Shown here piece by piece: positions 554-6,102 of a stretch of 33,128 nucleotides of DNA. The stretch spans positions 1 through 33,128 of the forward strand of contig JADGHL010000049.1 in assembly GCA_019686135.1 (NCBI GenBank), in the 5' to 3' direction. Source of the DNA: Myxococcaceae bacterium (GTDB lineage: Bacteria > Myxococcota > Myxococcia > Myxococcales > Myxococcaceae). Under the pieces are notes generated by a model, which had not been told where the DNA came from, made no database searches, and saw only the letters and a program-made list of their open reading frames with translations. Each line of letters opens with the position of its first letter. The stretch's first letter is position 1. The translations under genes and the position numbers were made by a program.

Positions 554-1266
554 GTGGCGGCGGTCCGAAGTACGAGCGGTATGAGCGCGAGCCGCCGAAG
601 CCCGAGGAGTTGGTGCTCGATGTCCGCAAGGAGCGCATCGAGAAGGTGATCGCGAACCGAACGCGGTCGTTCACCGTGGTGCTCGATCGCCTCGAGGACA
701 GCTTCAACATGGGCGCCGTCGTCCGCACCTGTGAGGGTATGGGCCTGCAGGAGGTACATGTCGTCAAGAACCCCGAGGCGCCGTTCCTCCCGAACACGAA
801 GGTGACCCAGGGCTGCGAGAAGTGGATCGACGTCGTGAAGCACGAGACCTTCGCGGAGGCCCGCGAGCACCTCAAGTCACGCGGCTTCACGATCTATGCG
901 TCGGCGATCCGGGAGGACGCGACCTCGCTGTTCGAGCTGAAGTTCGATCGGAAGATCGCCCTTGTCTTCGGGAACGAACGCCACGGCGTCTCCGACGAGG
1001 TGCTCGCCGGCGTGGACGGCGTGTTCTGGATCCCGATGCGCGGCTTCACCCAGAGCCTCAACGTCTCCGCGGCCGTGTCCGCCTCGGTGACGCGCGCGAT
1101 CGCCTGGCGCGCCGAGCACCTCGGCCCCGCGGGCGATCTCTCCCCGGAGGAGCAGGGAGCCTTGTGCGAGCGCTTCCTCCTCCTGTCGCTCAAGCAGCGT
1201 AAGCGTTTCGCGAAGGCGGTGGGCGGCGGGTTGAATCCGGGAGGAGCCCCCTCGTCCACAAAGTAG
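550..1266 (+). CDS. TrmH/SpoU-family RNA 2'-O-ribose methyltransferase
   Basis: This 238-residue protein has the three motifs of the SPOUT (trefoil-knot) methyltransferases. Motif 1 is at residues 50-60 (EDSFNMGAVVRT, with the catalytic Arg59), motif 2 at 137-146 (ALVFGNERHG) and motif 3 at 163-175 (MRGFTQSLNVSAA). The family transfers a methyl group from S-adenosylmethionine to a ribose 2'-OH, in TrmH on G18 of tRNA. Length and the basic C-terminal tail (residues 205-222, LLLSLKQRKRF) fit TrmH better than the larger RlmB type. The N-terminal 35 residues are charged. The ATG at 550 overlaps the stop of the upstream gene. The exact target (tRNA Gm18 or another position) cannot be read from sequence alone. 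Confidence 0.88.
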   Translation: MSGGGPKYERYEREPPKPEELVLDVRKERIEKVIANRTRSFTVVLDRLEDSFNMGAVVRTCEGMGLQEVHVVKNPEAPFLPNTKVTQGCEKWIDVVKHETFAEAREHLKSRGFTIYASAIREDATSLFELKFDRKIALVFGNERHGVSDEVLAGVDGVFWIPMRGFTQSLNVSAAVSASVTRAIAWRAEHLGPAGDLSPEEQGALCERFLLLSLKQRKRFAKAVGGGLNPGGAPSSTK

Positions 1267-1299
1267 CCGTCGAGTTCACCAAGCCCTACAGGGGATCCC

Positions 1300-2043
1300 A
1301 TGCTGATCGAATCCATGCTGTCCGCCTTCCTCTCCGTGATGCCCGCGGCCGCTCCCGGTCAGCCCCCGGGCACGCCGGAGCAGGGCGCGACCGAGAAGCC
1401 CGCTGCCGCCGCCGCGAAGCCGATGGCGCCGGACGTGAGGGCGCTCGTCGATCGGATGCAGGACTTCTACGAGAAGACGTCCGACTTCACCGCGGACTTC
1501 GATCAGAAGTACACGTACAAGAAGTTCAAGCGGACGCAGACCTCGTCGGGCAGCGTGATCTTCAAGAAGCCCGGGGTGATGCGCTGGGAGTACGTCGCGC
1601 CCAGCCCGAAGTCGTTCATCCTCGCGGGCGACAAGGTCTACGCGTACGACCCGCAGGCGATGCTCCTCACCAAGGCGAGCATCGACACCTCCCAGCTCTC
1701 GGCATCGGTCACCTTCCTGTTCGGCAAGGGCAGGCTCGCGGACGAGTTCTCCATCGAGAAGCTCGCCTGCAAGGACTGCAAGGGCACGCTGCTGCAGCTC
1801 ACGCCGATCAAGGCCGATCCCCGGTTCAAGCGCATCCTGCTCGAGGTCGATCCGCAGAGCGCTCAGGTGCTCCGCTCCACGGTGATCGACCCAGACGGGA
1901 GCGAGAATCAGATCACCTTCCGCAACCTGAAGACCAACACCGGCGTGACCGAGGCGGCGTTCAAGCTCAATCCTCCCGAGGGCACGCAGGTCCAGGACTA
2001 CACCCGGCCTCCCTCCGAGGGTGGCGCGCCCGAGAAGAAGTAG
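1300..2043 (+). CDS. lolA: Outer-membrane lipoprotein carrier protein LolA
   Basis: LolA is the periplasmic chaperone that takes lipoproteins from the LolCDE complex and carries them to the outer membrane. The 247-residue product begins with a short hydrophobic stretch (MLSAFLSVMPAAA) that could be a signal peptide, followed by a Pro/Ala-rich spacer to about residue 45. The LolA fold then follows: the helix LVDRMQDFYEKTSDFTADFDQ, the strand block SGSVIFKKPGVMRWEY (about 86-101), and AGDKVYAYDPQ near 110. The ATG at 1300 has AGGGG about 9 bases upstream; an ATG at 1315 is an alternative start. It lies 33 bp after the methyltransferase gene and 38 bp before a lipoprotein gene, so it is probably cotranscribed with both. 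Confidence 0.87.
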   Translation: MLIESMLSAFLSVMPAAAPGQPPGTPEQGATEKPAAAAAKPMAPDVRALVDRMQDFYEKTSDFTADFDQKYTYKKFKRTQTSSGSVIFKKPGVMRWEYVAPSPKSFILAGDKVYAYDPQAMLLTKASIDTSQLSASVTFLFGKGRLADEFSIEKLACKDCKGTLLQLTPIKADPRFKRILLEVDPQSAQVLRSTVIDPDGSENQITFRNLKTNTGVTEAAFKLNPPEGTQVQDYTRPPSEGGAPEKK

Positions 2044-2081
2044 GCGGAGCCCGGCGCGCGGCGGGCTACGATCGGCGCCGC

Positions 2082-3590
2082 ATGCGCGCTCTCCCCGTCG
2101 CCCTCCTCGCGCTGGTCCTCCACGCGGCATCCCTTTCAGGCTGCGCCGGCCGGCGTGCGGTTCCAGCGGACGAGCCGCAATCCCTCGCGGGCCTGGAGGC
2201 GCCGCTGGAGAGCAACGGGGCGGTGCGGCTCGGCGTGGCGGGGAGCGTGGAGGGCAGGCCGGCGCTGGTGATGTTCGAGGTCGCGCAGCCGCGGACGTCG
2301 GTGGCGCTGGGCTGCTTCGACGAAGAACCGAAGTCGCACGCCACGGTGCGGTTCAGCGACGCGCGCGGCGGGATGCTGGAGGCGTCCGAGATAGAAATCG
2401 CGGAGGTGCAGGTGGGCGGCCGGCGCCTGGGTGCGCTGGATGCCGCGGCGGCCGAAGGCGACGAGTGCGTGCTGACGCTCGGGTCCGACGTGCTGATGCC
2501 CTATGCGCTCACGATCGATCCCGGCCGCCGCAGCGTCCGCATCGGAGTGAGCCGACCCCGCGAGGTGTGGCTGCAGCAGGCGGCCACTCCGGATGAGGCG
2601 GCGCAGACGAAGGAGCTGCACCTGCTCGAGCTCGTGCGCGATCTGACCTCCGACTGGCCGCTTCTGGCGGTGCGCGCGCGGCAGGGAGAGGCGCAGCTGA
2701 CCGGCGCCTTCGTGCTCTCCACCAGCCTGGCGGAGTCCTACGTCGACGCCGCCTCGGCCGAACGCGCAGGGCTCCAGCGCGGCTCCGAGGTTCTGCGCGA
2801 TCTCGGCTTCCCGGAGCACGTGGAGCTCCCGAAGTCGCTGGGGACCGACCTGTTCACGCTCGAGCGCATCGAGCTGAGCCCCGGCTTCGGGCTGCGCTTC
2901 ACCGGCCTGCGCGCGGACGAGGGCTGGTCGAACCCCGGAGCGGTGGGCCTTCTGGGCGGGGACGTGTGGGGCCGCTTCGTCGCCACGGTGGATGTGGCGG
3001 CGGGCGTGCTCGCGCTCGAGCGGCCGCGCGTCTTCAGCTCCGGTGGGCGGCAGCGCTGTGTCACCGCGGCCGACGGCAGCGCCAGCGAGGAGGCGTGCTT
3101 CGTGCTGCACCAGACGCGCACCGAAGAGGGCCTCGACGTGGTGACCACCGTGTGGCGCGATCTCCCCCGCGGTGCGCGCGTCTACTTCGATGTGCTCGAT
3201 GGCCAGGGCCAACCGATCGGCGGCATGTGCCGGGTGGGGTTCACGTTTCCGCGCAGCGATCGCGGCGTGACCGCAGCGCACGAGCTCCCGTGGAAGGGGC
3301 TGGTGCGGGGACTGCCGGGCTGCGCGCAGGCGCTGGCGCACGCCGCCGAGGTCCGCTTCGGGCTTTGGGAGGAGGGCAGCATGGCGGAGTGTCCCGGCAC
3401 CTGCGCCTTCGTGGTCGACAACGTGACCGCGCGGGTGAGCTGCGAGTGCCAGACCTCCACGGTGGGCGTGATGAACCAGGCCGAACGGCAGTTCATGGAG
3501 CTGTACCGCGACCTGCAGGAGCGCAAGGACCTGAAGCGTCAGCCGCCGACAGGCAGAGGGCTCCGGGACGAGCCGGCCGACCCGCAGTAG
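2082..3590 (+). CDS. Lipoprotein with two aspartyl-protease-like lobes lacking catalytic Asp
   Basis: This is a 502-residue lipoprotein: the hydrophobic N-terminus ends in the lipobox LSGC (Cys21). Two consecutive segments resemble retropepsin/pepsin lobes. The first (about 46-155) has PALVMFEVAQPRTSVALGC where a protease would have its Asp-Thr-Gly loop, then LTLGSDVLMPYALTIDPGRR, the typical 'LG.D.L..f.v.iD' strand. The second (about 192-311) has FVLSTSLAESYVD and GLLGGDVWGRFVATVDVAAG. In both lobes the Asp is missing (Glu66-Val-Ala and Ser212-Thr-Ser), so proteolysis is unlikely. The last 190 residues contain several Cys (around 335-345 and 420-470) and no fold I recognise. I assign the fold by pattern, not by alignment. 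Its place after lolA fits an outer-membrane lipoprotein. Confidence 0.6.
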   Translation: MRALPVALLALVLHAASLSGCAGRRAVPADEPQSLAGLEAPLESNGAVRLGVAGSVEGRPALVMFEVAQPRTSVALGCFDEEPKSHATVRFSDARGGMLEASEIEIAEVQVGGRRLGALDAAAAEGDECVLTLGSDVLMPYALTIDPGRRSVRIGVSRPREVWLQQAATPDEAAQTKELHLLELVRDLTSDWPLLAVRARQGEAQLTGAFVLSTSLAESYVDAASAERAGLQRGSEVLRDLGFPEHVELPKSLGTDLFTLERIELSPGFGLRFTGLRADEGWSNPGAVGLLGGDVWGRFVATVDVAAGVLALERPRVFSSGGRQRCVTAADGSASEEACFVLHQTRTEEGLDVVTTVWRDLPRGARVYFDVLDGQGQPIGGMCRVGFTFPRSDRGVTAAHELPWKGLVRGLPGCAQALAHAAEVRFGLWEEGSMAECPGTCAFVVDNVTARVSCECQTSTVGVMNQAERQFMELYRDLQERKDLKRQPPTGRGLRDEPADPQ

Positions 3591-3648
3591 CACGCGCCAA
3601 TCCGCGTCGAGCACCCCGCCTCAAAGCCACCGTAAGCGCGCCTGCGGA

Positions 3649-3672
3649 AGACGGCAGACGGTAGACGGCAGA
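3649..3672. repeat. Short imperfect AGACGG-type tandem repeat
   Basis: Three imperfect copies of an AGACGGCA/AGACGGT unit sit in the 89-bp gap between the convergent lipoprotein gene and the fused monooxygenase gene. No U-tract terminator is visible there. The function is unknown; it may be simple slippage sequence. Confidence 0.5.
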
Positions 3673-3679
3673 CCGGACG

Positions 3680-5968
3680 TCACCGCCGCCGCGGCGTGAC
3701 CGAATGATACGGGTTCGGCCACGGCACCTCCGGATAGCCCTGCTCGGCGGCAGCGGCCATCGTCCAGTGCGGGTTCAAAAGGTGCGGCCGAGCCAGCGCG
3801 CACAGGTCCGCCCGCCCGGAGGCGATGATGGTGTTCACCTGATCCGCCGAGACGATGTTGCCCACGGCGATGGTGGGGATGTGCGCCTCGTTGCGGATGA
3901 GGTCCGCGAACCGCGTCTGCCACATCCGGCCGTAGACCGGCTGCTGGTGCGGCACGGTCTGGCCCGTGGAGACGTGGAGCAGGTCGCAGCCGTGCTCGCG
4001 GAACGCGCGGCCGATCGCCACCGCGTCCTCTTCGCTGAGACCGCCCTCCGCCCAGTCGCAGGCGGAGATGCGCACCGACATCGGCTTGTGCTTCGGCCAG
4101 ACCGCGCGCACCGCGTCGAACACCTCGAGCGGGAAGCGGAGCCGATTTTCGATCCGGCCGCCGTACTCGTCGTCGCGGTGATTGGTGAGCGGCGACAGAA
4201 AGCTCGCCAGAAGGTACCCGTGCGCCATGTGCAGCTCGAGCAGGTCGAAGCCGCACGCCTCCGCCATCTGCGCGGCGCGCACGAAGTCCGCGCGCACCTT
4301 CGCCATGTCCTCCGCAGTGGCGGCGCGCGGCGTCTGGTTCTCCGGGCTCCAGGGGATGGCCGACGCGGAGATGAGCGGCCAGTTCCCGGTCGGCAGCGGG
4401 ACGTCGTAGCCCTCCCACCCGACGCGGGTGCTGCCCTTGCGGCCGGCATGACCGAGCTGCAGCGCGATCTTCGCGGGCGACCGCTGGTGGACGAAGTCGA
4501 CGATCCGCCGCCAGGCGCGCTCGTGCTCGGGCGCGTACATCCCGGCGCATCCGGGCGTTATGCGTCCCTCCGGGGAGACGCAGGTCATCTCGGTGTATAC
4601 CAGGGCGGCGCCGCCCAGCGCGAAGCTGCCCAGGTGCACGAGGTGGAAGTCGTCCGGCGTGCCGTCCTTCGCCGAGTACATCGCCATCGGCGACACGACG
4701 ACGCGGTTGTGGAGGACGAGGTCGCGCACCTTGAACGCGGTGAACATCGGCGGCGGCGTGGGGTGCGGCGCGGGACGCGTGTACGGCCCGTCCCCGACGC
4801 ACGCCAGCGGATCGGCGCCGCACAGCTGCTTGCGCGCTTGTGCCGCGAACCACTCGGTGACCGCGCCGGTGAAGCCCGGATCGCGCATTCGCAGGTTGTC
4901 GAAGCCGATCCGCTTGGACCGCGTCAGCAGGCTGAACGCCGCCTGCATCGCCGGCTGGGCGTGGTAGCGGCGGGTGTTCTCGAACCACAACAGCGAGTCC
5001 TGCGCGGCCTTCTGCGTGCGCTCGACCATGCCCCTGCGTTCGGTCTCGTAGGCCTCCAGCGCTTCGCGCACGTCGTTCGGGTGCTGCTTCATCGCGGCCG
5101 CCAGCGAGATGGCGTCCTCGAGCGCGAGCTTGGTCCCCGATCCGATGGAGAAGTGCGCGGTGTGCGCCGCGTCCCCGAGCAGCACCACGTTCTCGTGCCG
5201 CCACGTCTTGTTTCGCACGGTGACGAAGTTGATCCACGTGGACTTATTGAGCAGCAGCGGGTTGCCGTCGAGGTACCGGGCGAAGACCCCTTCGAGGTAC
5301 CGGGCGCCCTCCTCGGGCGTCATCTTGTCCAGCCCCGCGGTCCGCCAGCTCCGCTCGTCGCACTCGACGATGAAGGTGCTGGCGCTCTTGTCGAAGCGGT
5401 AGGCGTGGACCTGGAAGAGGCCGTGCGCGTTCTCCTCGAAGATGAAGGTGAAGGCCTCGAACAACTTGTGCGTGCCCAACCAGATGTAGCGGGCCTTGCG
5501 GAAGTCGAGGTCGGGCTGGAAGGTCGCCGCGTACTTCTGGCGGACGATCGACCGGACGCCGTCCGCGCCGACGAGCAAATCCCACTCGCGCGGATCCGGC
5601 ACTTCCGTGAGCTCCTTCTCGAAGTGGATCCGCACGCCCAGCTCGAGCGCGCGGTCCTGCAGGATGCGGAGGAGCGCCTTGCGGGCGATCCCCGAGAAGC
5701 CATGGCCGGTCGACCGGAAGCGCTCGCCCTTGATGTGGATGTCGATGTCGTTCCAGTGGGCGAACGTCCGGGTGATGGCCTGGTGCGTCGGGCCGTCCGC
5801 CTCGAGCAGGTTGCCCAACGTCTCGTCCGAGAACACCACGCCCCAACCGAAGGTCTGGTCGGGCGGGTTGCGCTCGAAGACCTCGATGTGATGCCCCGGG
5901 TCCAGCTTCTTCATCAGGATGCTGAAGTACAGGCCCGCCGGGCCACCGCCGATGACGCCGATTCTCAT
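3680..5968 (-). CDS. Fused FAD monooxygenase / Old Yellow Enzyme (2-aminobenzoyl-CoA or salicylyl-CoA hydroxylase type)
   Basis: The 762-residue protein joins two enzymes. Residues 1-400 are a class A flavin monooxygenase with the dinucleotide motif GGGPAG (7-12), a DG motif (LVGADGVRS, 132-140) and the GD motif [16 protein letters not shown] (263-278). Residues from about 408 are an NADH:flavin oxidoreductase barrel ([42 protein letters not shown]). This fusion is known from 2-aminobenzoyl-CoA monooxygenase/reductase and from proteins annotated as salicylyl-CoA 5-hydroxylase/oxidoreductase. These hydroxylate an aromatic acyl-CoA and, in the aminobenzoyl case, reduce the ring for non-classical aromatic degradation. 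The start is set at ATG 5968 because the FAD motif begins directly there. No aryl-CoA ligase gene is adjacent, so the substrate is open. Confidence 0.85.
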
Positions 5969-6102
5969 GCTGGCTGGCGGGTGTAATTGACGAGGCCGGA
6001 CGTGTCCACGCAGACGGATGGTCGTCTGCCCTGCGGAGGGCCGGGCCCGCATGGCCGCTCGGCGCCATGGCTCCTACCTTCTGCTGAAGGAGGCACCGAC
6101 CG

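Follow-up and report, generated by a model that had tools for sequence, protein, structure and literature searches.

Pseudoproteases with a pepsin fold are known from eukaryotes, and some of them are inhibitors. In one account (PMC11313796), xylanase inhibitor, EDGP and basic 7S globulin have two lobes in a single chain with the C-lobe Asp replaced; four pepsin-fold proteins with this replacement are given as inactive, and the histo-aspartic protease HAP, which carries Asp32His, as active. Shewasins, the bacterial pepsins, are bilobal, keep both Asp residues and have no signal peptide, according to PMC4814920 and PMC2761423; the latter describes the bacterial pepsins known at its time as having both Asp residues conserved. 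The literature search brought up no bacterial pepsin-fold pseudoprotease that could be recognised by title or by the start of the abstract, subscription papers being mostly outside its scope. Nor was a paper on the lipoprotein described below recognised in this way, which leaves its absence from print unproven. The retropepsin domain of DDI1/DDI2 is single-lobed, dimeric and eukaryotic, and the Asp of the DDI2 D-S-G motif is its catalytic Asp.

How does a lipoprotein of the Myxococcaceae compare with these systems? Its gene lies in the window, the whole stretch of 33,128 nucleotides that was analysed (contig JADGHL010000049.1), and its features are collected in Table 1. The best reading is that of a lineage-specific pepsin-fold pseudoprotease that serves as an envelope binding protein. 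The product is probably a catalytically dead, two-lobed pepsin-fold lipoprotein with a Cys-rich beta-sandwich and an acidic-proline tail, and with a binding role in the envelope. This draws on computed observations: the fold prediction, the register of the active sites, the lack of an Asp at the second site in each of the 92 orthologues examined, the lipobox, the presence of the gene in nearly the whole family and its linkage to lolA. Like the eukaryotic pseudoproteases, the protein is predicted to have two lobes in one chain, with the C-lobe Asp replaced; unlike them it is bacterial, its first motif is also without D-T/S-G, it has an extra C-terminal domain predicted as a beta-sandwich, and its gene stands beside lolA. 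It is predicted to be bilobal, as shewasins are, but differs from them at the Asp positions and in its signal peptide. L001, a protein of the same genome, is likewise built of two retropepsin-type lobes that follow an N-terminal lipobox-like Cys, but it has a PDZ domain as well, and both of its lobes retain D-T-G. The DDI1/DDI2 domain matches the N-lobe and, unlike the lipoprotein, keeps D-S-G. That the open reading frame encodes a lipoprotein and that lolA lies directly upstream had been proposed in an earlier note made from the sequence, and both points were borne out, the first by the lipobox L-S-G-C21.

Table 1. Coordinates in the window of the lipoprotein gene, its predicted domains and sites, and the upstream neighbour
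Feature	Position	Strand	Basis
lolA, conserved upstream neighbour	1300..2043	+	PF03548, E 2.3e-29; adjacency counts
Lipoprotein CDS, 502 aa	2082..3590	+	ORF reading; orthologues in 92/96 genomes of the Myxococcaceae, the family of the window
Signal peptide and lipobox L-S-G-C, ending in Cys21	2082..2144	+	Sequence
N-lobe, predicted pepsin fold, about residues 36-176	2187..2609	+	Model and fold matches; DDI1/DDI2 retropepsin profile match; limits approximate
Glu66, position of first catalytic Asp; E-V-A replaces D-T/S-G	2277..2279	+	Profile register; counts over 92 orthologues
C-lobe, predicted pepsin fold, about residues 177-316	2610..3029	+	Model, fold matches and profile-profile alignment; limits approximate
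Ser213, position of second catalytic Asp; S-T-S replaces D-T/S-G	2718..2720	+	Profile-profile register; Asp in 0/92 orthologues
Cys-rich C-terminal domain, about residues 322-463, predicted beta-sandwich	3045..3470	+	Alignments and model; weak fold matches only
Conserved C-terminal tail E-P-A-D-P, residues 497-501	3570..3584	+	Invariance in alignment; tail counts

The protein was modelled with AlphaFold2 from a 36-sequence alignment without templates (pLDDT 87.9, pTM 0.85), and residues 36-315 of the model form a two-lobed pepsin fold. Foldseek with this model returned 102 PDB chains at E <= 0.001, the best at E 1.7e-7. The best 50 of the 102 are, by title, aspartic proteases or their relatives, plus 9iy9, a putative endopeptidase of Bacteroides fragilis; HAP is among them, as is Bla g 2, an inactive relative. 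By VIA-align, 9iy9 is the closest solved fold among the matches listed (Z 16.9, rmsd 4.0, 243 aligned, 13% identity), and no paper on it was found among the publications listed in the literature search. The other 49 listed matches, which comprise renins, chymosins, pepsins, cathepsin D and others, reach Z 14.3-15.0. Most of these span model residues 36-315, and thus both lobes, and sequence identity to the 50 solved pepsin-fold matches listed is only 8-15%. No LolA- or LolB-like fold is among the Foldseek and VIA-align matches listed, either for the whole model or for the C-terminal domain, which does not speak against such a fold. As modelled, then, one chain would hold two similar, pepsin-like lobes, and the fold prediction and fold search that the earlier note had proposed as its check came out in its favour. 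Its further claim of a duplicated fold stands for the two lobes of the model; by sequence alone internal duplication is weak, with the late strand alone aligned when lobe is compared with lobe (30 columns, E 0.013).

The late strands are LGSDVLMPYALTID at residues 133-146 of the N-lobe and LLGGDVWGRFVATVD at residues 290-304 of the C-lobe. A hydrophobic-hydrophobic-Gly sequence after the active-site loop is found in the C-lobe as L290-L291-G292. Its N-lobe counterpart is T132-L133-G134, with V-L-G in some orthologues. G134 is invariant in both alignments, A1 (30 rows, out of 48 that remained after leaving out L035, which has a bad start, and L048, from the same genome as L004) and A2 (36 rows), and L291 is invariant in A2. 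These two strands, the Glu66-Val-Ala triplet and the Cys-rich C-terminus had all been pointed out before and are confirmed by the sequence. An NCBIfam search gave no match for the window protein; an NCBIfam match at E 0.03 in one of 30 orthologues and a PF23157 match in one of 30 were both taken as chance.

Of interest is the Cys-rich C-terminal region, which had been described as having no recognised fold. There is still no firm match, but the region modelled alone (183 residues) gives a confident predicted beta-sandwich with a terminal helix (pLDDT 83.4, pTM 0.68). Eight Cys residues are conserved in the domain, at 326, 339, 383, 414, 437, 441, 454 and 456; six of these are invariant in A1 and A2, and the other two, C326 and C339, show no variation in A2 and hardly any in A1. 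Foldseek found no match to the domain at E <= 0.001. The best of the weak matches listed is the DUF1425 protein 3o0l (Foldseek E 0.014, and Z 5.7 where the guide for chance is about 8), followed by Cj0090, 4gio (Foldseek E 0.11, Z 5.6), and both are below the tool's guide for safe matches; a Pfam search of 36 members gave no DUF1425 sequence match at E <= 0.5. Pfam and PDB-sequence searches of the domain produced nothing firm, an Ntox33 match (E 0.14, in one of 36 members) was taken as chance, and sequence alignment revealed no similarity of the domain to either pepsin lobe. In the tail, E497, P498 and D500 are invariant in 36 sequences, and the tail pattern stands at the very end of the protein in 83 of 92 orthologues. 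Three divergent members (L033, L036 and L037), of 295-341 aa, are without the Cys-rich domain. As one of them, L033, ends in E-P-A-E-P, the tail is not strictly tied to this domain. The Myxococcus/Pyxidicoccus orthologues L082-L087 are longer than most (527-614 aa), and in several of them the profile match is split in two, the pepsin body and the Cys-rich domain being separated by a gap.

How widely is the gene distributed? A family profile search found it in 92 of 195 genomes of the phylum. All 92 are among the 96 that belong to the window's family; none of the 99 others has a match. Scans of genome contigs gave 37 pattern matches and no relative with a single-sequence query, and 67 pattern matches and 35 loci with an alignment query. 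These 35 named loci are from Myxococcus, Corallococcus, Archangium, Pyxidicoccus and Citreicoccus, from MAGs in or near this group, and from one record titled Comamonas sp. KCTC 72670 (L067, BNCN01000002.1), which carries a Myxococcus-type locus and whose title looks wrong. The sole match outside the family (G153) came from a single-sequence scan and covers 61 aa of the C-terminal domain with one internal stop (E 8.1e-5); neither the profile search nor a search for ORFs of at least 60 aa reproduced it, and it was set aside as a possible chance match. One family genome (G090) has two partial matches near contig ends, L132 on C177 and L013 on C126, with identity of 33% and 43%; a second copy or a mixed assembly is possible. 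Four family genomes are without a profile match. In one of these (G089) the first 1.5 kb or so downstream of lolA gave no match. The others are three small genomes of 2.1-2.7 Mb, in which a lipoprotein-like ORF stands right after lolA and shows weak lobe similarity (14.2, 13.2 and 6.4 bits); by their sequences these ORFs are suggestive only as relatives of the lipoprotein, and Pfam found nothing in the two that were scanned.

Has the protein lost most of its function, as a fast-evolving relic or a neutral passenger of the lolA operon? Orthologues are 25-44% identical to the window protein, compared with 52-70% for LolA, and the neighbours LolA, SpoU and RimO are all more conserved. The dN/dS values, which are rough, with third positions probably saturated, have a median of 0.35 and a maximum of 1.4 over 1673 non-independent pairs (NG86, pairs with dS 0.2-0.8 only), and medians by domain are 0.32-0.39 with maxima above 1. 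These figures are what a relic might show. Against this, the gene is kept in 92 of 96 family genomes, and the protein has 21 invariant columns in 30 sequences and 35 in 36 sequences; the 35 include Asp191, Trp192, Asp294, Asp304, the Cys residues and Glu497, Pro498 and Asp500 of the conserved tail. A relic is quite unlikely.

The lolA stop codon and the lipoprotein start codon are 38 bp apart, and a weak scan of 1200-3800, limited to the sigma-70 consensus, found neither promoter-like sites nor, on the same strand, terminator-like ones. With adjacency taken as a lolA match that ends within 400 bases of the start, and 12 of the 92 loci uncounted that have under 900 upstream bases, the gene is found directly after lolA in 73 of 80 testable loci. 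In the seven non-adjacent loci, lolA is farther upstream in two and outside the stretch examined in five. At L059, one lipoprotein-like gene lies between lolA and the lipoprotein gene. Outside the window's family, three genomes of the same order (f2) have a TPR protein, or a TPR protein and a periplasmic-binding-like protein, after lolA, and three of four f3 genomes have, by eye, an ATPase-like gene. As other genes fill this slot outside the family, lolA does not need the lipoprotein in general. Two further genes of the window can be mentioned. On the minus strand, 3680-6052 encodes a fusion of FAD monooxygenase (PF01494) and Old Yellow Enzyme (PF00724) domains that resembles salicylyl-CoA/anthraniloyl-CoA monooxygenases. 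On the plus strand, 1-553 is a repetitive ORF rich in Lys and Ala. It contains 11 related units of 33 nt and a direct duplication of 141 nt at 86% identity, has no Pfam match and is histone-H1-like in composition.

Could the lipoprotein act in place of LolB? A functional LolB substitute of unrelated fold, as outer-membrane acceptor or as a helper of LolA, would agree with the lolA adjacency and with the small-genome ORFs that follow lolA. The LolB model PF03550 was found in none of 39 sampled family genomes, matched E. coli only among 14 control genomes, and did not match the window protein itself at E <= 1. A lipoprotein signal with a lipobox Cys, which is a LolB-type feature, is predicted from the sequence of the window protein, and 91 of 92 orthologues share this Cys; the remaining one (L013) begins at a contig edge. 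However, such a substitute seems quite unlikely. We know of no acyl-chain cavity in a pepsin fold, and this fold would be an unlikely acyl carrier. LolA occurs without the lipoprotein in the three f2 genomes, and the similarity of the small-genome ORFs is weak. In favour of it, PMC11784454 gives the end of the pathway in LolB-lacking bacteria as open beyond one case; that case is a bifunctional LolA, which suffices in Caulobacter. LolB is also reported in Bacteroidota, according to the titles of PMC11885536 and PMC13103446, which suggests that it may be present there but unrecognised by sequence, and the same may hold here.

The catalytic positions were located by profile alignment. Among solved structures, a 30-orthologue profile gives its best sequence-level match with the retropepsin domain of DDI2 (4rgh, E 3.3e-5). 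The match covers the N-lobe, and the Asp of the DDI2 D-S-G falls on family position 66. L001 (contig C66, 674-1903, plus strand) is an active-looking two-lobed aspartyl protease with a lipobox-like N-terminus and D-T-G at residues 65 and 186. A profile of L001 and six relatives is co-linear with the lipoprotein profile over 231 columns (hhalign probability 84%, P 7.4e-6), and in this register position 66 corresponds to Asp65 and position 213 to Asp186. Taken singly, the lipoprotein N-lobe aligns with the active N-lobe of the L001-type profile at P 3.1e-8. The C-lobe aligns with the active N-lobe at P 5.9e-5, Ser213 being on the Asp, and with the active C-lobe alone in the late strand only (34 columns, P 0.0016). 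From the DDI2 and L001 registers, the two sites chosen in the earlier note are right, although its Ser212-Thr-Ser was misnumbered and should read Ser213-Thr-Ser. In Pfam, the window protein scores 13 bits with PF13975, below the curated cut-off of 28.2, and has no match to PF13650 at E <= 1; at E <= 0.1, two of the 30 orthologues match PF13650 (best 3.6e-6) and two match PF13975 (best 1.3e-5).

Other proteins with related lobes were seen. Matches to L001 occur in nine of 58 family genomes, its own included, and two of these cover the PDZ end only. L165 (G101) and L166 (G110) are two-lobed aspartyl proteases with PDZ, D-S-G in the first lobe and D-V-G in the second; possibly they represent an intermediate state of site loss. 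In the same genome as the window, a WD40-repeat protein (L002, contig C175, ORF 706-2379, plus strand) has a single retropepsin-like lobe between repeats, at residues 266-351 (PF13650, E 6.5e-4, 20.8 bits with a cut-off of 24.3). Its active-site stretch is F-D-A-A-Q-P, without D-T/S-G, and it is perhaps a second dead aspartyl-protease domain of this genome.

For the state of the two sites, 94 loci were taken, of which L131 (no ORF match) and L132 (the second fragment in G090) were left out; the 92 orthologues that remained are each from a different genome. At position 66, 85 of them carry Asp, four Glu, two Ala and one Gly. Position 213 holds Gly in 43 of them, Ser in 34, Ala in 12, Val in two and Thr in one, and it is never Asp. 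The claim that both Asp residues are lost therefore applies to the window protein but not to the family, where the first Asp is mostly kept. The first motif is D-V-A in 53 orthologues, D-V-T in 12 and D-V-S in 5, with rarer forms besides, and a Gly two residues beyond Asp66 is found in only three of the 85. When orthologues were checked for the motif, as had been suggested, Asp-Thr/Ser-Gly was at neither site in any of the 92, and the D-[TS]-G strings in five of them lie elsewhere. What active aspartic peptidases of families A1/A2 have, an Asp in both lobes and the D-T/S-G motif, is missing from these sequences. The site pattern is that of an inactive protein; the C-lobe Asp is absent, as in the inactive pepsin-fold proteins of PMC11313796. 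A predicted pepsin fold together with a replaced C-lobe Asp points to a pepsin-fold pseudoprotease, and the pseudoprotease reading of the earlier note is well supported by the fold and by the 92 orthologues.

Is Asp66 a relic, or was it regained? This depends on the root of the tree. A quick tree, for which the motif columns were left out, has just two changes between Asp and other residues at position 66. The Glu66 of the window protein is common to three other long-branched rows. Asp66 and Arg215 occur together in 78 of 85 orthologues with Asp66 and in none of the seven without it (Fisher p 3.9e-7). A rebuilt salt bridge as a co-adaptation was rejected, as it is inseparable from descent: among 113 positions compared, several others (46, 154, 220 and 398) score alike, and there is only one independent pair on starred branches of the tree. 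Might the fold be right and the protein never have come from a peptidase, as an independent branch of the retropepsin fold in which Asp66 was gained later? With midpoint rooting, the rows nearest the root have Ala, Gly or Glu at position 66, and the Pfam score is below the cut-off. But the root and several long branches are unsure, and the alignments with DDI2 and with the two-lobed D-T-G profile keep the active-site register; an independent branch is very unlikely. The weakest alternative, and a highly improbable one, is that the protein is still a peptidase that works by the single Asp66 or another residue through an unusual mechanism like that of HAP: most orthologues do have Asp66 and HAP is active with one Asp, but HAP keeps the C-lobe Asp (PMC11313796), exactly the one that is absent in 92 of 92 here, the first motif is never D-T/S-G and rarely has the Gly, and the window protein itself has Glu66.

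How, then, might a dead pepsin-fold lipoprotein with a binding role function? It would be lipidated at the lipobox Cys and would reach the outer membrane, where the former substrate cleft, the C-terminal domain or both might bind an envelope protein or peptide partner without cutting it. Such binding would be analogous to that of eukaryotic pepsin-fold pseudoproteases such as the xylanase inhibitors. Peptide binding, envelope scaffolding and a surface location, which the earlier note had put forward, may likewise apply to the protein. Some points count against this reading. A purely dead scaffold need not keep Asp66, which 85 of 92 orthologues have; dN/dS is above 1 in some pairs, conservation is below that of LolA, SpoU and RimO, and four family genomes lack a profile match.

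As the lolA neighbourhood is conserved, outer-membrane lipoprotein biogenesis is the first place to look for a function. A part in the delivery of lipoproteins without LolB is no more than a possibility. It is very doubtful that the protein is the outer-membrane acceptor that takes lipoproteins from LolA, with the retired pepsin cleft holding lipoprotein N-termini or LolA itself; if this were true, a peptidase fold would have been turned into a part for lipoprotein delivery. A pseudoprotease that almost every genome of a bacterial family encodes, usually beside lolA, is a concrete candidate for a role in the envelope, and it touches the question of how bacteria without LolB finish lipoprotein delivery.
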